Source of the DNA: a virus
Virus record (IMG/VR): IMGVR_UViG_3300009285_005078
Span: 1-41,134 of that record
DNA: 41,134 nt
Strand: one strand, 5' to 3'
A model generated the notes under the pieces. The model worked only from the letters and a program-made list of their open reading frames with translations. It had not been told where the DNA came from and made no database searches. A program made the position numbers and the translations under genes. Positions 3 through 39,617 of this stretch are shown here, in pieces. The stretch's first letter is position 1. Every line of letters starts with the position of its first letter.

Positions 3-860
3 CCCGATCTTTTGGAACGAGGGCTTTATCAGTTTCAAAACTATTACGGTTCCATAAGATGGTCTATTTCTTCCCTCATTATTATTTTTCCAGTTTACGT
101 CTGGGCCGGTTATTATTTAAATAAAATTTATTCTCGCGAACCGGAAAAGCGCAATTTAAGGATTCGCAAGTGGCTCCTAAATTTCACGGTTTTTGCCGCC
201 GCTTTAATTATAATAGGGGATTTGGTAACCCTTATTTACAACTTTTTAGGCGGCGACCTGACAATGCGGTTTGTTCTTAAAATCGCGGCCGTTTTCTTCG
301 TTGCCGCTTCCGTTTTCTTTTATTATTTCTGGGAGTTAAGGGGTTGGGCAACCCGTTCGACAAGCTCAGGGTTAAAAATTTCCGATTCAGCGAGAAAAAT
401 TTTCATCTACGCGGTTATTGCCATCGTGGCGCTCGCGGTGATTGCCGGATTTTTTGTTGTCGGCTCGCCGCAAAGCGAACGCCTGCGTCGTTTTGACGAC
501 CAGAAAGTTTCCGACCTTCAAATTATCCAAGGACAAATAATTTATTACTGGCAAAACAAGGAAAAACTTCCCGGAAAGCTTGACGATTTGAAAGACCCAA
601 TAAGTGGATTTAATCCGGCTAAAGACCCGCAAACCGGCGCCGATTACATCTACGAAGTTAAGGGTAAATTAGAATTTTCGCTTTGCGCCGATTTTAATCT
701 GCCGAGTTTAGAAAGCGGCAAACCCTCTATTGAACTCCCGACATATCCGCCGCAATATTATCCGCGCAGCGATTCCAACTGGAATCACGGTACTGGCTAC
801 GTTTGTTTTGAAAGAAAAATAGATCCGGAACTTTACAGACCAATCCAAAAAGCAAAATAA
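3..860 (+). CDS. DUF5671-like membrane protein with pseudopilin-like C-terminal domain, 5' end cut off
   Basis: The frame is open to the left edge, so the N-terminus is missing; codons before the TTG at 12 still read as protein. Several strongly hydrophobic stretches fill the first half (SSLIIIFPVYVWAGYYL, FTVFAAALIIIGDLVTLIY, a third near FVLKIAAVFFVAASVFFYYF, and IFIYAVIAIVALAVIAGFFVV). A soluble tail follows with RRFDDQKVSDLQIIQGQI, a run of residues like the extracytoplasmic part of type II/IV pseudopilins, then YYWQNKEKLP and a conserved-looking GTGYVCFE near the end. This domain pair is typical of Patescibacteria DUF5671 proteins. The role is unknown; an inner-membrane protein with an external domain is likely. 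A short inverted repeat sits in frame between the halves. It converges with the gene at 908-1285 on a shared terminator. Confidence 0.75.
   Translation, partial: PDLLERGLYQFQNYYGSIRWSISSLIIIFPVYVWAGYYLNKIYSREPEKRNLRIRKWLLNFTVFAAALIIIGDLVTLIYNFLGGDLTMRFVLKIAAVFFVAASVFFYYFWELRGWATRSTSSGLKISDSARKIFIYAVIAIVALAVIAGFFVVGSPQSERLRRFDDQKVSDLQIIQGQIIYYWQNKEKLPGKLDDLKDPISGFNPAKDPQTGADYIYEVKGKLEFSLCADFNLPSLESGKPSIELPTYPPQYYPRSDSNWNHGTGYVCFERKIDPELYRPIQKAK
350..373. repeat. short inverted repeat inserted in frame inside the membrane-protein gene
   Basis: AACCC at 350-354 pairs with GGGTT at 369-373 around GTTCGACAAGCTCA. It encodes a hydrophilic patch (RSTSSG) between two membrane segments. From general knowledge, closely similar TTCGACAAGCTCAGGG units occur as interspersed palindromic repeats in many uncultured bacterial genomes, including CPR. 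Only one copy is visible here. Confidence 0.5.
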
Positions 861-875
861 ACTTCTAAAATGTAA

Positions 876-904
876 AACGCCCTTAAGTAGTACCTAAGGG
901 CGTT
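876..904. terminator. bidirectional intrinsic terminator
   Basis: A perfect 10-bp stem (AACGCCCTTA with TAAGGGCGTT) around a 9-nt loop, with A-rich and T-rich flanks on either side. It lies between the stop codons of two convergent genes (860 and 908) and can serve both. Confidence 0.85.
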
Positions 905-907
905 TGG

Positions 908-1285
908 TTACAAATCCGGCAGTTTTTCGCCACCCGAAAAGGAGACCTTATCAATATATAGTTTCTTTATTTCGCATTTCCCATCCGGCAATTTTTCTTG
1001 TAAGAAAATTATTGGGAAAATATTTTTGCTGACCATATCATGATAGCCAGGAAAAATGTCTTTTCTGACGCAACCGATTATTGTTTTATTTTGTCCGGAC
1101 GAATCGGAAAAGGCGGCGACCAAATAAGTAAAGCTATCAGGCAAAACCGAGTTAAAACTACTGACAACACCAATAGCGGCAGCAAACGATTCGTATGCCG
1201 CTCTGGTAAGAATGCCAACAACTTCATTGAATGATTCTATTGGTATTGCTCCGATAATGTGTTTTATCAACATTATACATATCAA
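908..1285 (-). CDS. hypothetical protein, CPR section
   Basis: An unrecognised protein of about 120 residues. The composition is ordinary for a soluble protein, with alternating hydrophobic residues in the middle (FTYLVAAFSDSSGQNKTIIGCV) and a lysine-rich end (CEIKKLYIDKVSFSGGEKLPDL). No catalytic motif, signal peptide or membrane helix is seen. The start is uncertain: the first methionine is at 1285, but the one four codons later (MLIKHII) is equally possible. A TATAAT-like sequence overlaps this area, so the promoter may be right here. The gene stops three bases from the shared hairpin terminator, which supports it being real. A 64-codon ORF on the opposite strand is regarded as a shadow. 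Confidence 0.55.
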   Translation of the reverse strand: MICIMLIKHIIGAIPIESFNEVVGILTRAAYESFAAAIGVVSSFNSVLPDSFTYLVAAFSDSSGQNKTIIGCVRKDIFPGYHDMVSKNIFPIIFLQEKLPDGKCEIKKLYIDKVSFSGGEKLPDL

Positions 1286-1387
1286 TCAAATAAATTCTTT
1301 AAAAATCTGAAAATCATGCTTGAGGATTTTTTTGTTGGTGCCGTAGACGGCGACGGCGGCGCCTTAGAAGCTGAATTCAAGCTCGCT

Positions 1388-1416
1388 TTGACAGGCCGCG
1401 TAAATTATGGTATATA
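1388..1416 (+). promoter_or_regulatory. sigma70-type promoter of typA
   Basis: TTGACA at 1388-1393, a 17-bp spacer, then TATATA at 1411-1416. This is a near-consensus housekeeping promoter about 37 bp upstream of the typA start, in the gap after the divergent gene at 908-1285. Confidence 0.75.
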
Positions 1417-1452
1417 TTTATAGTAATTGTGCTGGGAAGCCGGCATTTTTTT

Positions 1453-3249
1453 ATGAAAATCAGGAACATCGCCATTATCGCCCATGTTGACCACGGCAAA
1501 ACCGCTTTAACCGACGCTTTGATGCGCCAGACAGGCGCGGTGGAAGAAGGCGTGAGCATGGATTCAAACGCGCTGGAACTGGAGCGCGGTATTACGATTT
1601 ACTCAAAAAATGCCTCTATTTTTTATAAGGATACGAAGATAAACATCGTGGACACTCCGGGCCACGCCGATTTTGGTTCGGAGGTGGAGCGCGTCCTTCG
1701 TTCAATCGATTCTGTTGTTTTGGTGGTGGATGCCCAGGAAGGGCCGATGCCCCAGACCAAATTCGTTTTGAAAAAATCTTTAGAGCTCGGCTTAAAGCCG
1801 ATTGTGGTTATCAATAAAATAGACAAGCCGGCGGCCAGGCCCGATTGGGTCCATGAAAAAGTGCTGGAGCTTTTTATGGATTTGAGAGCGAGTGACAGCC
1901 AGCTCAATTTTTCCACGGTTTACGCCATAGCCAAAGAAGGTGTTGCCAAAAATAAGTTAACCGACGATTCAAAAAATCTTTCGCCGCTTCTTGAAACAAT
2001 ACTCAAAGAAGTTCCGGAAGCGTCTTCGCAGGAGCTAAATCAAAAGCCCTTAAGAATCCAGCCGTTTAATCTGGCCTACGATAATTTTATGGGGCGCCTC
2101 GCCATTGGTCGGATTTACGAAGGAGTTGTTAAAGCGGGTAATGTGTTCGTAAAAAACGCCACTGGCGAGGTAAGGGCGGGAAAAATAAACAAAATTTTCA
2201 CTTTTGAAGGCCTTAAGAGAAAAGAGGTCGTGGAAGCGTCGGCCGGCGACATTATAATGATTGCCGGTCTTTCGGATATTTTTATCGGCGAGACGGTTTG
2301 TGCCGATCCCAATCAGAACGCCTTGCCGGCCATCAACATCGACGAGCCGACGATATCGCTTAATTTTTTGGTCAACAATTCGCCGTTTGCCGGTTGCGAA
2401 GGCAAATTTGTCACGAGCCGCCAACTGCGGGAGAGATTGGAGCGGGAGCTCGAAGTGAACGTCGGGTTAAAAATTGATTTTTCGGCGGGGGATTATTTTA
2501 AAGTTTACGGCCGGGGCGAATTGCATATCGCGATACTTCTCGAAAACATGAGGCGCGAGGGCTATGAGCTCCAGGTGTCCAAGCCCCAGGTTATTTTTAA
2601 AGAAGATTCTTCGGGAAAGACACTAGAGCCGTTTGAAGAAGTTGTCGTAGATGTTCCGAACACCATGTCCGGCTCGGTTATTGAAAGATTATCAAAAAGA
2701 AAAGGCGCGATGGCGAGCATCGAGCCCGACCAGAATCACACGAGATTGGTTTTTGAAATTCCGACGCGGGGACTGTTGGGCTATCGCGGGGAATTCGTGA
2801 TAGAGACGAAGGGCGAAGGCATTATTTACAGCCGGGTAATCGGTTTCCGGCCGTTTGTCGGAGATATTGACCGGCAGGTTTTCGGTTCAATGGTTTCAAT
2901 GGCCGATGGTAAGGCGCTCGGCTATTCACTGTGGAATCTTCAGGAAAGGGGAACGCTTTATATCGGCGCCGGCACCAAGGTTTTTGAAGGCATGGTTATC
3001 GGCAATACCGCGAAAGGCAATGACATGGCTGTAAACCCGACCAAAGGCAAAAATCTTACTAATGTCCGCTCCAAGAGCTCCGATGAAGCGATTACATTAA
3101 CTCCGCCGTTTGAAATCACTCTTGAAAGAGGGCTCGAAATTGTCGGCGACGACGAATATCTAGAGGTGGCGCCAAAAAGCGTCCGCCTAAGAAAACAAGT
3201 TCTCAGCGAACTCAACCGCGTCCGCGTTAAACGCCAGGGCAAGGCCTAA
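1453..3249 (+). CDS. typA: ribosome-associated GTPase TypA/BipA
   Basis: A translational GTPase of the EF-G/LepA group that acts on the 50S subunit and is linked to ribosome assembly and stress growth. All G motifs are visible near the N-terminus: AHVDHGKT (P-loop), ERGITI (switch I), DTPGHADF (switch II) and NKIDKP (guanine specificity). Domain II follows, then EF-G-like domains III and V (GRGELHIAILLENMRREGYE), and the BipA-specific C-terminal domain with GLLGYRGEF, GTKVFEGMVIG and NVRSKSSDEA. At 598 residues it is full length (the family is about 600-610). The ATG at 1453 is chosen because MKIRNIAIIAHVDHGKT matches the family N-terminus; a GTG at 1429 in the same frame adds an atypical extension. 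Standard codon use, AT-rich like its neighbours, with its own promoter and terminator. Confidence 0.97.
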   Translation: MKIRNIAIIAHVDHGKTALTDALMRQTGAVEEGVSMDSNALELERGITIYSKNASIFYKDTKINIVDTPGHADFGSEVERVLRSIDSVVLVVDAQEGPMPQTKFVLKKSLELGLKPIVVINKIDKPAARPDWVHEKVLELFMDLRASDSQLNFSTVYAIAKEGVAKNKLTDDSKNLSPLLETILKEVPEASSQELNQKPLRIQPFNLAYDNFMGRLAIGRIYEGVVKAGNVFVKNATGEVRAGKINKIFTFEGLKRKEVVEASAGDIIMIAGLSDIFIGETVCADPNQNALPAINIDEPTISLNFLVNNSPFAGCEGKFVTSRQLRERLERELEVNVGLKIDFSAGDYFKVYGRGELHIAILLENMRREGYELQVSKPQVIFKEDSSGKTLEPFEEVVVDVPNTMSGSVIERLSKRKGAMASIEPDQNHTRLVFEIPTRGLLGYRGEFVIETKGEGIIYSRVIGFRPFVGDIDRQVFGSMVSMADGKALGYSLWNLQERGTLYIGAGTKVFEGMVIGNTAKGNDMAVNPTKGKNLTNVRSKSSDEAITLTPPFEITLERGLEIVGDDEYLEVAPKSVRLRKQVLSELNRVRVKRQGKA

Positions 3250-3391: not shown

Positions 3392-4149
3392 CACCTCAAT
3401 CCTTCCTGCCCCTTAACCGCCGCCAGTGGCGGCGACTGCGCGTCCGTGTTGGTATACACCGGCTTTCCTGCGTCGAGCGCCGCCCACAGGGTCGTATTGT
3501 TCTCCCGCACCGCCGGGTCGAAATAGAGGGCCACGGCATCACAGTCGGCCAATTCCTTGGCCAGCGCGTCATCCCCGAGATACCCGAGAACGCGCAGGCG
3601 GTCGCCAAAGATGCCGCGCATGGCGGTAATGCTGTCCGTCAATGCGCCATCCCACGGGGAGCCTTCATGGACCGCCGTGGACAGGGCGATGGTGTAGTCT
3701 GGATGCTCCACGTCGAGCCGCGCCTTGAGCGCCGCAAACTGCTCTAGCGCGAGCTTGTGCGCCATGCCGAAGGTCAGGACGCGATACGCGCCGCGACTCG
3801 GGTTGCCCTGAATGGTCGAGGGACACCACGCTTCGATGATGTCGGGGCGAATGGGACGCAGTGCGTCAGCGAGTGCGCGGCTCGCCGCAAAGGCTCGCAC
3901 GGCGTACAAGAGCAGCGGTTCACCCAACGCGCCATGTAGAAAAATATCGAACGGTACGCGCGCGATCAGGATGTTTTCGGGCAACTCAGACGGCTTGATG
4001 GACACCAGTGGATACTGCGCCGCCAACGCCTCGGGTGACCCCAGCCGATAGCACGGCACGCCCAGCCGCGCCGCGAGCTGGTGGTTGAACTTGGCCACCC
4101 CGCACGTCATGGGGTTCATGTGGTACGACAGCACGCAATCGTTCGTCAT
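3391..4149 (-). CDS. GT-B-like glycosyltransferase, phage
   Basis: A protein of 252 residues. The start (VLSYHMNPMTCGVAKFNHQLA, with CGVAKF matching the CGIAxY opening of GT4-type enzymes) and the end (DCDAVALYFDPA..NNTTLWAALDAGKPVYTN, like the sugar-nucleotide region of GT-B C-domains) both suggest a compact GT-B glycosyltransferase. It is shorter than a usual GT-B enzyme (350-400), so it may be reduced or may not be catalytic. The start overlaps the stop of the nucleotidyltransferase-methyltransferase gene by four bases (ATGA), which implies coupled translation and a shared pathway. It is the last phage gene before the junction, and its stop is three bases from the cellular piece, so the C-terminus is probably intact. 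Acceptor and donor are unknown. Confidence 0.55.
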   Translation of the reverse strand: MTNDCVLSYHMNPMTCGVAKFNHQLAARLGVPCYRLGSPEALAAQYPLVSIKPSELPENILIARVPFDIFLHGALGEPLLLYAVRAFAASRALADALRPIRPDIIEAWCPSTIQGNPSRGAYRVLTFGMAHKLALEQFAALKARLDVEHPDYTIALSTAVHEGSPWDGALTDSITAMRGIFGDRLRVLGYLGDDALAKELADCDAVALYFDPAVRENNTTLWAALDAGKPVYTNTDAQSPPLAAVKGQEGLR

Positions 4150-5138
4150 ACCTCGAACACCAATACCCGCCCCAGCCCCTTCCAGTCCATCTTAGCCTCC
4201 AGGTCCGGGCGGCTCTTGCAGCCGTGCAGCACGAACAGCGCGCGCAGCAAATCCTTTGTGGCAAACGTGATTTCGGTCGGGTCAATCTCGCGGTGGCCGT
4301 CAGTCGTCACGTCCAGCAGATGCGCCGGGTTCGGATGAAAGCGCGTCGTGAGGTAGATGTAGCGACTAGAGTGAGCGACAAGCGAACGAATCAGTTTTTC
4401 CCATTCACTGAGTGGCACATGCTCAAAGACTTCTCGGCACACCACCAGCGGGGTCACGTGTGCGTCGTTAAACCAGTTATCGTCCAAAACGAAATAATGG
4501 TCCGTCGTGACGTGCGGCTCATAACCAAACGCCTTCAACCCCAGTTCTCGCAGCATGGTCACCAGATGGCCCAGACCGCACCCGTAGTCAAGCACGCCTG
4601 ACGGTTCAAACACGTCCTTGATGAGTTGCGCGTGCGGCCCCTCAATCCCCCGTCGAGCCTCCAGGCTGTAGTCCGTCGTCGGCACCCACGGCTGCTGCGG
4701 CGGCTGTGTCTGGATGAACCGTTCCAGCGCCGCCACGGCTCGCCCATCGGCCCGGCGCTGGTAGTCGGCTAGAAGCGCCGATGAGGACGCCATGCGCGTG
4801 TCGAGGTAGCGAATCTCGGCTTTCACTTCCCGGCACGCAGTCACCACGTCCAAGGGCAGGCGGTCCCGCCACTCCTCGCCCTTCACGAGGAAGTCCGGCT
4901 TGATCACATGGATCGCGTTCGCCAGCGGCCCAATTCGCACGCTATGCACCGCATGGAGTCCGGCAATGACCGCAGCCCGCCGCGCTTCCAGCAGGAACAC
5001 CGGATGCTTCTGTTCGACCACACTATCTGGCGCGACGTTGACGATCAGGATGCCGAGGCGGGCGGCTTCATGCAGGTAGGCGACGTGCCCGTGATGCAGC
5101 GGATCGAACGTGCCATCGGCCAACACGACTGGAGTCAT
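4146..5138 (-). CDS. bifunctional cytidylyltransferase-like / SAM-dependent methyltransferase fusion
   Basis: Two domains in 330 residues. Residues 1 to about 130 are a nucleotidyltransferase of the cytidylyltransferase superfamily: ADGTFDPLHHGH carries the HxGH active site at 15-18, with KPDFLVKGEEW at 80-90 and a RMASSSAL segment at 115-122 in the place of the family's C-terminal ST motif. It resembles RfaE C-domain, TagD and glycerol-3-phosphate cytidylyltransferases. Residues about 150-330 are a class I methyltransferase with motif I VLDYGCGLGHLV (182-193) and REVFEHVPLSEWEKLI later, as in Methyltransf_23. Known family chemistry would be activation of a sugar- or polyol-phosphate with CTP plus a methyl transfer; the substrate here is inferred only. 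It is coupled (ATGA) to the GT-like gene downstream and preceded by a conserved 29-bp element. Confidence 0.75.
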   Translation of the reverse strand: MTPVVLADGTFDPLHHGHVAYLHEAARLGILIVNVAPDSVVEQKHPVFLLEARRAAVIAGLHAVHSVRIGPLANAIHVIKPDFLVKGEEWRDRLPLDVVTACREVKAEIRYLDTRMASSSALLADYQRRADGRAVAALERFIQTQPPQQPWVPTTDYSLEARRGIEGPHAQLIKDVFEPSGVLDYGCGLGHLVTMLRELGLKAFGYEPHVTTDHYFVLDDNWFNDAHVTPLVVCREVFEHVPLSEWEKLIRSLVAHSSRYIYLTTRFHPNPAHLLDVTTDGHREIDPTEITFATKDLLRALFVLHGCKSRPDLEAKMDWKGLGRVLVFEV

Positions 5139-7380: not shown

Positions 7381-8841
7381 CTATGGCGTATAGGTCGTGT
7401 CCAGCGAGGTCGCCCCGCCCTTCCAGAGCACAAGCGGCCCCAAGTAGCCCAGCTCCAGCAACCGCCGCCGCATCTCGATATGCTGCTGCACGTCGCCCAC
7501 CACCCGCGCCCGCGTCGCCTCCAGGCCTGACGGCGTGAGCCGATTCGCGTCCCGCCAGAGCTGCTGGTTCATCTTGACCTTTTCGTGCGCCAGCCCGAGC
7601 ATGGCCCCGATGTTCTCCTGTGAGTTCGACAGCCCTTGGCGCCTGATGAAGTCGAGCTTGGTATCCTGCGTCAGCTTGTCGCCCAGCGGCGGCAGGCCGT
7701 ATTCGGTCATGGCCCCGTTAATCACGGGCAGGTCGTAGCTATTGTGGACAGCAAAACCTTCGGCGATATAGGTGTGCGTGGACGTAGAAAGACCGGCGAC
7801 CTCTCGCTGCCCGACATCCCGAAGGCCGACCACGCGGACCATTTTGATTTGCCGTAGCGCCTGCATTGACGGATAATCGACCCATCGCTTGAGAAGCCGT
7901 TGGGGCCGAACCTGTCCAAGAAACCGAAGCGCATCGTTAATGCCACCATTAACCCGAAGCGATTGCGCCCTGATCGCGCTTGATCGTCGGCCGACGACCG
8001 CCGACACAAAACCGTAGCGGTGTAGCGCGTCTACGGCGTACTGAAGGGTTGGGCCTGGATTTTGTGCGGCAGTAATCTGTAACGCTTGTCCGGCCGATCC
8101 AGATCGGCCAAGCGTCCCTTCGCCATCAAAAAACCCGGCCAGCCATCCGGCTTCTCGGGTGTCAATCGACCTCCACGGGTCAACGACCTGATAAAGCCAG
8201 ACCGGCCTCCGTGCAAATCTGTTTGGTTGAATTGCCGAAGAACCAAGCAGTTCGTCGGTTCGCCGCCAATGAAACCGCATTGCGTTTCTGTCGTTCCGCG
8301 TTCCAACCAGCCACGGATGTTCGGCGGTGGCATAAAGCGTTTGGCCAGACTCCAAGTCCACGGCATAGGTGCGCTCGCAGCGTGGTTCGTTCGACACAAC
8401 CTCTGCAAACCTGATCCGCCGCCCCCGGCGTGGCGCTCCGTGTTCGTCAAATGCTACGAGACGGTCGCCCGGCACGAGGTCGCCAGCGCAAACCCAACGT
8501 AGATCAGCCGTGAGCACGCGTGTTTCAGGCACCACGCACCGGATGAAATGCCCCGTCACCATGTCGGCATAATCGTAGGCCCAACGAAACAGCGTCAGCA
8601 TGAACACGGCGTCTGTTTCGCCCAGCAAGTGACAATGCACATCGTCGGGCGTGTCGGTCCATGCCCACGCAATCGCGGTGATTTCCTTGCTGACGTAGTC
8701 GCTGCTGATCCAGTGGAGCGGCCGGGCTTCGACGTCGAAGTCCAACACACGCATCGGGCGCGACGGAATGACGACATGGGCGGGCGCCAGTACCAGATCG
8801 CCCGGTTCAGGCGTCAATCTTGGTCGAATCAGGATGCGCAT
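7381..8841 (-). CDS. DEDD-family 3'-5' exonuclease interrupted by an intein
   Basis: Numbering here is from the alternative TTG at 8850. The extein is an RNase H-like exonuclease related to the proofreading domain of family B polymerases: Exo I LDFDVE (D39, E41); Exo II split by the intein, TGHFIR before and SYDLPVING after (D373); then DTKLDFIRR and NIGAMLGL; an Exo III candidate VVGDVQQHIEM (D453), where the usual tyrosine four residues earlier is arginine. The intein covers residues 105-370. After splicing about 220 residues remain, a normal length for a standalone exonuclease. ATG at 8841 is preferred; the frame also contains TTG at 8850 and an ATG at codon 33 just before the Exo I motif. 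No polymerase gene was seen in the window, so the role may be phage replication or repair with a host polymerase. Confidence 0.82.
   Translation of the reverse strand: MRILIRPRLTPEPGDLVLAPAHVVIPSRPMRVLDFDVEARPLHWISSDYVSKEITAIAWAWTDTPDDVHCHLLGETDAVFMLTLFRWAYDYADMVTGHFIRCVVPETRVLTADLRWVCAGDLVPGDRLVAFDEHGAPRRGRRIRFAEVVSNEPRCERTYAVDLESGQTLYATAEHPWLVGTRNDRNAMRFHWRRTDELLGSSAIQPNRFARRPVWLYQVVDPWRSIDTREAGWLAGFFDGEGTLGRSGSAGQALQITAAQNPGPTLQYAVDALHRYGFVSAVVGRRSSAIRAQSLRVNGGINDALRFLGQVRPQRLLKRWVDYPSMQALRQIKMVRVVGLRDVGQREVAGLSTSTHTYIAEGFAVHNSYDLPVINGAMTEYGLPPLGDKLTQDTKLDFIRRQGLSNSQENIGAMLGLAHEKVKMNQQLWRDANRLTPSGLEATRARVVGDVQQHIEMRRRLLELGYLGPLVLWKGGATSLDTTYTP
7741..8538 (-). mobile_element. intein with LAGLIDADG homing endonuclease domain
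   Basis: 266 residues in frame, from Cys1 to the terminal Asn. Block A is CVVPETRVLTADLRW with GDLVPGDRL after it. Block B is TLYATAEHPWLV (TAEH contains the catalytic Thr and His). One LAGLIDADG helix is clear, GWLAGFFDGEGTL. Block F is VVGLRDVGQREVAGLS, and block G is THTYIAEGFAVHN followed by Ser as the +1 nucleophile. Removing it rejoins TGHFIR to SYDLPVING, restoring a continuous Exo II motif. Only one LAGLIDADG motif is obvious, although the domain is long enough for a degenerate second one. GC content matches the phage, so it is not a very recent arrival. Confidence 0.92.
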
Positions 8842-9037
8842 CGTCCACAATCTGAAGGTCGAAGGCCGTCCCTTCGGCCAGTCCGAGCACCGAGCGGCCG
8901 GACTTCAGGGCCTCGATTTCGGGAAGCAGGACGTCCTCCTCGAAATCAATGGACTCAAACCGCTGTTTGAGGCGGAACTGCGCCCGACGCAGCGCTTTGA
9001 GTTTGCGCTCTTGCCTGCTGTCTCTGCTTAAGCTCAT
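8807..9037 (-). CDS. small hypothetical phage protein
   Basis: 76 residues: a basic helix-forming start (RQERKLKALRRAQFRLKQRF) and an acidic second half (FEEDVLLPEIEALKSG). No family recognised. It overlaps the preceding gene by 83 bases and the exonuclease by about 35. A GAGAG seven bases before the ATG is a fair ribosome site. Possibly a nucleic-acid-binding or adaptor protein, but that is a guess from charge alone. Confidence 0.45.
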   Translation of the reverse strand: MSLSRDSRQERKLKALRRAQFRLKQRFESIDFEEDVLLPEIEALKSGRSVLGLAEGTAFDLQIVDDAHPDSTKIDA

Positions 9038-38436: not shown

Positions 38437-39177
38437 TCACCCGTAAATCCGCTTCAAGTCCGCTGCCCGCTTCGCCAGCACCGGATCGACGGCTGGCGGG
38501 CCGTTCGCCCGTGGCCGGCCCTGGTTCTGCTCCCGCGTCAGCCAGTTCACCAGAAACCTCGGCATCCCCTTCGCCGTTTTCCGCTTCGTCGGATTCGCCC
38601 GCGCCCACGCCAGCGCATTCCGACACGTTGCCAACACGTCAAGGCCCGGATAGAGCGGCCCCCATTCGTCAAGCTGGGATTGCGTCAACGACCATTCGTG
38701 GCAGTCCTTCGACCCGACCACCGGGAACGCCAACACCGCCGGCTCCGATGGCGGCTGAGCCGCCTCGGGGCTAACGCTCTTGATCTTTTGTAGAGACGGA
38801 GACGGAGACGGAGAACGCGTGTTGTTATTGGCTGTGTTATGCCCGGCGTTACGCTGTTCGTTACGCTCTCGGTAACGTGCTTGGCGGTCGGCCCGAACGA
38901 TGGATTGCGCTAACACCCTATCGAGCGTGCCGTTATGCCAACCGTCCGGCCGGAGTTCGAAGCGTGCGAGGACCGGCCCACGGACGCGGGACCACGCCAG
39001 CGCATCTCCGCAGGCTTTCGCCAGAATCCGCTCGTCGTTCGGCAGCGCCCCGCCGCGTAAATGCGCTTCGTCCAAGAGGTTGCGATACGCGCCCTGTTCT
39101 TCCAGCGTCATGTCCGTGTAGGCCGTCGATTTCCGCCAGCGATCGATCCACCACCACAGGGCATTCAGTCGGGCCAT
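38437..39177 (-). CDS. DUF1376-like replication-type phage protein
   Basis: 246 residues from ATG 39177. The N-terminal 90 residues match the DUF1376 pattern: LWWWIDRWRKSTAYTDMTLEEQGAYRNLLDEAHLRGG-type (key parts: W..D......T..M...E.GAYRNLLD, then LPNDERILAKACG). A low-complexity linker (PSPSPS from a GGAGAC hexamer repeat near 38791-38818) leads to a C-terminal domain with CRNALAWARANPTKRKTAKGMPRFLVNWL, as in phage replication-initiation proteins where it joins a helicase-loader. A longer ORF start at 39363 is a shadow. No helicase or primase gene was found in the window. Confidence 0.75.
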   Translation of the reverse strand: MARLNALWWWIDRWRKSTAYTDMTLEEQGAYRNLLDEAHLRGGALPNDERILAKACGDALAWSRVRGPVLARFELRPDGWHNGTLDRVLAQSIVRADRQARYRERNEQRNAGHNTANNNTRSPSPSPSLQKIKSVSPEAAQPPSEPAVLAFPVVGSKDCHEWSLTQSQLDEWGPLYPGLDVLATCRNALAWARANPTKRKTAKGMPRFLVNWLTREQNQGRPRANGPPAVDPVLAKRAADLKRIYG

Positions 39178-39182
39178 CCGGG

Positions 39183-39617
39183 TTACTCCACCCTCGTCAG
39201 CCGATAGGCACTGGTCCGCCGCCGGCCCTCGGGCGTCTCCACCGTGCCCTGCTTGTTCGCCAACATGTAGCCTTGCGGCTCCAGCGCCCGCCTGACCTCG
39301 GCGACCCTGGTCCGCCAGCCGCCCGTCCCGGCCAAGTGTGCCAAGGTCTGCATCGTCACCCACTGGCCGAGATGGGCCAGGAAGTACCGCGCCACGCCTT
39401 GCGCCAACGGGCAGAGGCTAGCGAGGCTCGGCTCGTCGCCGTCCCAGAGTCGCCCGAGCGGATGCCGCTGTCGGTACGCCGCCACTCGGCACGACGGCCG
39501 GCAGTAGTCTTGATCCTTCCGGGTCGGCGCGAAGGACTGGCCACACCCTAGACAGGCCCGAGTAACGGCTTGGTAACGCCTTCCAATCGAGTTCTCGGCT
39601 GGCGAAGGGTCTAGCAT
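39183..39617 (-). CDS. zinc-finger plus winged-helix protein
   Basis: 144 residues. CLGCGQSFAPTRKDQDYCRPSCRVAAYRQRH (two CxxC pairs, the CRxSCRVAAYRQR end typical of small DNA-binding zinc fingers in phages), then a winged-helix-like part (FLAHLGQWVTMQTLAHLAG..WRTRVAEVRRALEPQGY). A DNA-binding role in replication or early transcription is likely. It lies directly before the DUF1376 gene, with five bases between. Confidence 0.7.
   Translation of the reverse strand: MLDPSPAENSIGRRYQAVTRACLGCGQSFAPTRKDQDYCRPSCRVAAYRQRHPLGRLWDGDEPSLASLCPLAQGVARYFLAHLGQWVTMQTLAHLAGTGGWRTRVAEVRRALEPQGYMLANKQGTVETPEGRRRTSAYRLTRVE

Follow-up and report, generated by a model that had tools for sequence, protein, structure and literature searches.

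Locus and reading frame

The sample was one metagenome-derived contig (IMG/VR record IMGVR_UViG_3300009285_005078), examined by sequence analysis alone; the window is the whole stretch of 41,134 nt. An exonuclease-intein precursor is encoded on the minus strand at 7381-8850. The frame is open throughout, and its translation carries the splicing residues that the first-pass annotation had named. A TTG start at 8850 would give 489 aa and an ATG start at 8841 would give 486 aa, the latter being likelier because this start is common to the homologues (MRI...). In the ATG reading, the 486-aa precursor (7381-8841, minus strand) consists of a 220-aa DEDD exonuclease and a 266-aa intein. The N-extein (8539..8841, minus strand) has 101 aa counted from the ATG and ends in TGHFIR, with homologues aligning through. 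The intein (7741..8538, minus strand) runs for 266 aa from Cys1 to Asn266, and corresponds to residues 105-370 in the TTG reading and 102-367 in the ATG reading. The C-extein (7381..7740, minus strand; 119 aa and the stop) begins with Ser+1 in the sequence SYDLPVING. Joined at 101/102, the exteins give a protein of 220 aa.

The left 3.2 kb of the contig holds bacterial genes, namely those for a DUF5671 protein and for a typA/bipA GTPase that looks complete (12-3249, plus strand). These are bacterial chromosome genes that adjoin the phage genes, and the contig therefore probably spans the edge of a provirus, judged by the neighbouring genes. The most conserved neighbour of the exonuclease is a 76-aa gene that overlaps its start (8807..9037, minus strand). 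It is found in most relatives at 42-82% identity, always beside the exonuclease as a conserved operon partner, and its family matches are limited to a weak one to JetA (E 0.0039); its product is a possible partner of the exonuclease. Of the window genes that were scanned, none was recognised as a polymerase, and a primosomal-type protein (DUF1376) lies at 38437-39363 of the window. At 4146-5138 (minus strand) a cytidylyltransferase-like domain is fused to a methyltransferase domain, and one relative, L004, has this fusion too. Window DNA 1-24000 gave no match to INPHARED. In the search for the phage host, alignment found a 43% homologue on one MAG contig of Anaeromyxobacter and a stricter query found none, which is too little to name the host.

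A DEDD exonuclease interrupted within motif II

The exonuclease motifs were located on the minus strand by comparison with the homologues. Motif I reads DFDVE (8728..8742), with the D-x-E invariant. The N-terminal half of motif II, placed by the homologue alignment, is TGHFIR (8539..8556), and the C-terminal half is SYD (7732..7740), which contains the invariant catalytic Asp. Motif III reads RVVGD (7492..7506), with its Asp invariant as well, so that the DEDD catalytic acids are all present. The general form of motif III is RxxGD. Its lack of the usual Tyr or His had been noted in the first-pass annotation, correctly, and is family-wide, since Arg occupies D-4 in 42 of 43 distinct sequences. 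Neither the typical DEDDy arrangement (Tyr at D-4) nor the typical DEDDh arrangement (His at D-5) fits this motif.

Removal of the insert from the translation joins TGHFIR to SYDLPVING, as had been described, and profile comparison supports the join. The unjoined extein matched phrog_403 (DNA polymerase exonuclease subunit) only at E=0.0026, while the joined extein matched it at E=6.9e-9, in an alignment that spans residues 53-166 and so crosses the join. The predicted structure of the closest homologue (pLDDT 78) matches PolB exonuclease domains with a best E of 7.8e-7, and the insertion within Exo II is borne out in a protein of PolB-type exonuclease fold. Against the INPHARED phages, the joined extein gave nothing at E<=1e-3, with weak matches to DnaQ-like and crAss-like exonucleases at E>=0.1.

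Splicing domain of the insert

The class 1 splicing residues are all in place: Cys1, the TxxH of block B in the form TAEH, and a block G composed of the penultimate His and the Asn (HN) followed by Ser+1. An alignment of 28 inteins has invariant columns at C1, L9, G24, V47, H74, G135, D138, G139, E140, G141, Q159, G261 and N266; the splicing residues C1, H74, G261 and N266 are thus invariant or intact. A class 3 intein was also considered and is out, as Cys1 is present and block F has no Cys (the last 60 residues are free of Cys).

Curated family models matched both ends just under their cut-offs, TIGR01445 (intein_Nterm) at the N-terminal end with E 0.00032 and TIGR01443 (intein_Cterm) at the C-terminal end with E 0.084. 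We attribute the position of the TIGRFAM and Pfam matches under the curated cut-offs to the divergence of the family. A model for an intein-containing radical SAM protein matches the intein along its whole length (E 2.1e-10). End-to-end alignments were obtained with inteins from 148 phage records (best E 1e-33) and from the viral contig loci L011-L041. Its AlphaFold model has a mean pLDDT of 90.7 and the Hint fold, and the best Foldseek matches of this model are the TliVMA, PI-SceI, GyrA, DnaE and DnaB inteins and mini-inteins (best E 4.4e-9). The phage records, the Foldseek matches and the gap-free homologues described below put well beyond chance the identification as an intein, which was one part of the earlier description "full-length intein"; the other part is taken up with the endonuclease below.

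Intein-free relatives and codon usage

Homologues of the exonuclease were found on 47 other IMG/VR contigs, at 36-66% identity. A test set beforehand was the search for intein-free homologues across the join, and such homologues were found and aligned without a gap: none of the 47 is interrupted at the present site, and no gap falls within ten residues of the join. Homologues with the same insert lacking the splicing residues, the other outcome of interest, were not among them. The sole other interrupted homologue found, L015 (1778-3100), has an intact related intein at a different conserved site, KVNMN/TTLW.

Of about 48 relatives, 46 do without any intein, at the present site or elsewhere, which counts against the possibility that the intein is a switch holding the exonuclease off until a redox, temperature or similar cue. 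Conditional splicing is known for other inteins (PMC5790916, PMC6195587), and an insertion inside the active site would suit such a role. The sequence has no sign of a sensor, and we regard a regulatory switch as improbable.

The residue at the +1 position was then compared across the 44 distinct homologues that are uninterrupted here. It is G in 24, R in 7, K in 7, M in 4, A in 1 and N in 1; Ser, Thr or Cys occurs in none of the 44, and Ser is found in the interrupted copy only. The L015 intein follows the same pattern, with Thr at +1 where its relatives have Gln. Codon usage also sets the intein apart. Its GC3 is 0.579, and every one of 524 windows of the same size from the phage's remaining genes has a higher value (mean 0.811, SD 0.037, minimum 0.737); from this foreign codon usage the intein looks recently acquired. 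Together, the +1 pattern and the GC3 value suggest joint arrival of the intein and the Ser+1 codon, or else a donor lineage in which Ser was present beforehand. No empty-site relative exceeds 66% identity, which is too distant to document recent homing.

The shift of codon usage at the borders, in a single metagenome-derived contig, could also be read as a degenerate or assembly-made fusion in which the exonuclease is a pseudogene. Such an artefact would hardly place its borders exactly at Cys1 and at the Asn266/Ser+1 junction, keep the frame open throughout and leave intact both the DEDD tetrad and every splicing residue, and we give this explanation almost no weight compared with a functional intein. 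The family-wide lack of a +1 nucleophile in the uninterrupted relatives opens a long-standing question to test, namely how inteins enter sites with a +1 residue that would not allow splicing; candidate routes are co-conversion of the flanking DNA and descent from a donor lineage that has since been lost.

A one-unit LAGLIDADG endonuclease

The usual intein endonuclease consists of two LAGLIDADG units. Here a single LAGLIDADG domain (7879..8163, minus strand; about intein residues 126-220) lies between the splicing blocks, matched by Pfam LAGLIDADG_3 with E 0.00089, below the curated cut-off. Its motif WLAGFFDGEG (8116..8145, minus strand) spans intein residues 132-141, in which G135, D138, G139, E140 and G141 are invariant in the 28 inteins. 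The AlphaFold model has one alpha-beta-beta-alpha-beta-beta-alpha unit and one LAGLIDADG motif. In order, the unit comprises a helix (128-140), two strands (141-146 and 152-159), a second helix (163-174), two further strands (178-183 and 192-197) and a last helix (199-209). An endonuclease with two motifs about 100 residues apart is out, given the one motif and the one unit in the model. The word "full-length" in the earlier description accordingly says too much, as one unit is half the usual complement. The family profile matches I-MsoI (E 1.1e-10, to a fused construct) and I-CreI chains, and by pattern exactly one LAGLIDADG motif is present in all 85 related inteins examined (237-282 aa).

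Homodimeric LAGLIDADG enzymes are described as needing two units (PMC3943268). With one unit in the model, the intein endonuclease would therefore probably act as a homodimer. Conservation of the acidic E140 and of Q159 makes catalysis plausible. At the empty site, 5 of the 11 pairs of positions are palindromic, which is the score most often obtained at random sites of the genome, and this background level does not favour a homodimeric cutter.

The lack of a palindrome bears on an alternative in which the intein splices and its endonuclease is dead or matches no target, so that the intein is a fixed passenger, kept since its loss must be exact. The closest empty-site partner, only 66% identical, is in line with this alternative, as is the fact that inteins usually decay after fixation. 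On the other side, G135, D138, G139, E140, G141 and Q159 are invariant across the 28 inteins including the present one, and the low GC3 favours recent arrival. We consider a passenger rather unlikely, though it is the alternative to which we give most weight, and prefer an intein with a working endonuclease.

Proposed mechanism

From what was directly established, namely the sequence anatomy, the empty-site homologues, the fold prediction, the conserved residues and the foreign codon usage, it is very likely that this tailed-phage locus encodes a standalone 3'-5' exonuclease of the DEDD type with a self-splicing and homing class 1 intein in motif II; the splicing, the inactivity of the precursor, the dimerisation, the cutting and the homing are what we infer. 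The Hint domain would fold in the precursor and Cys1 would make a thioester, after which Ser+1 would take over the N-extein and Asn266 would cyclise, aided by His265. Splicing would join TGHFIR to SYDLPVIN and complete the active site. Before splicing, the precursor should have no activity, because the intein keeps the N-terminal half of motif II apart from the catalytic Asp104. The single LAGLIDADG unit may dimerise and, close to the TGHFIR/SYD junction, cut copies of the gene that lack the intein; the intein could then spread through gene conversion in mixed infections.

Related inteins in other exonucleases and polymerases

The first-pass annotation had regarded a standalone DEDD exonuclease as a less usual host than polymerases, helicases or terminases. 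As a correction, exonuclease motifs are no isolated target: the Exo II or Exo III motif of several other viral proteins also holds a related intein. L018 and L022 have them in Exo II of RNase_H_2-type exonucleases, L023 in Exo II of a family B polymerase, and L019 in Exo II (WEWN/CQYDF) of a host that reads, by inspection, as a UDG-exonuclease-PolA fusion. These four inteins are about 30-40% identical to the present one and occupy the same catalytic motif. In L018, L019 and L023 the insertion separates positions D-4 and D-3 relative to the motif II Asp, one residue further out than the present intein, which lies between D-3 and D-2. In Exo III, the YCxQD motif is split between Tyr and Cys by related inteins in L103 (PolA) and L105 (PolB-like by motifs). 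Among the matches listed from INPHARED searches with the inteins of L018, L023 and L105, the hosts were only terminases, portal proteins and a small number that were unnamed or radical SAM-like.

The intein tree groups L013, L016, L018, L019, L022 and L023 with support (96/93) and places the present intein outside this clade, with no firm position of its own. The tree gives no support to a single clade of Exo II inteins; constraining all of them to one group gave p-AU 0.159, and a single origin is not rejected. Independent invasions of Exo II are likely, short of proof. A wider proposal, to which we would give somewhat less than an even chance, is that compact one-unit LAGLIDADG inteins of a single lineage in environmental viruses, with the endonuclease a homodimer within the intein, have entered 3'-5' exonucleases at their catalytic motifs time and again: Exo II of standalone exonucleases, PolA and PolB at neighbouring distinct positions, and Exo III of PolA and PolB. 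Such motifs would then be a regular target, overlooked so far in the catalogues based on cultured phages.

Two further groups of related inteins were observed. L106, L123 and L136 have inteins in apparent uracil-DNA glycosylase genes by motif (near GEAPGxxE and HPA). L028-L041 and L144-L153 form a supported intein clade with apparently mostly terminase-like hosts, and these inteins mostly end in SN, KN or AN, without the penultimate His.

Comparison with known systems

No inteins in Exo II or Exo III were found in the open-access literature that was searched. In a survey of mycobacteriophage inteins, the hosts include terminases, a RecB-like exonuclease of the PD-(D/E)XK type and a nucleotidyltransferase, and no DEDD exonuclease is among those listed (PMC5050341). 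The present case is a new insertion site and host protein for a known kind of mobile element. The intein catalogue gains both, with a natural set of intein-free relatives, and proofreading-type exonuclease motifs are seen to be invaded beside P-loops and polymerase motifs. With its single compact unit, the endonuclease might also serve as a small reagent.

As to the host protein, the DEDD residues, motif spacing and fold are as in phrog_403 and the PolB exonuclease domain; the present protein differs in having Arg, not Tyr, at D-4 of motif III and in the absence of a polymerase domain. As to the intein, that of DirtMonster gp242 (a terminase-like protein of a cluster C1 mycobacteriophage; 269 aa) is 35% identical end to end, and the cluster C1 terminase-like inteins have the same one-unit LAGLIDADG layout. 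Their host is a terminase-like protein and not an exonuclease, and their site and tree clade differ. Pham3880-g of ScottMcG gp245, at the C1 terminase-like intein site, spliced when tested, with the precursor visible (PMC5050341), and by cluster and gene name this is probably the same site as that of the DirtMonster intein. As to the endonuclease, I-CreI and I-MsoI have one LAGLIDADG motif and one alpha-beta-beta-alpha-beta-beta-alpha unit, as here; they are intron-encoded free proteins, whereas the present endonuclease is nested in a Hint splicing domain.
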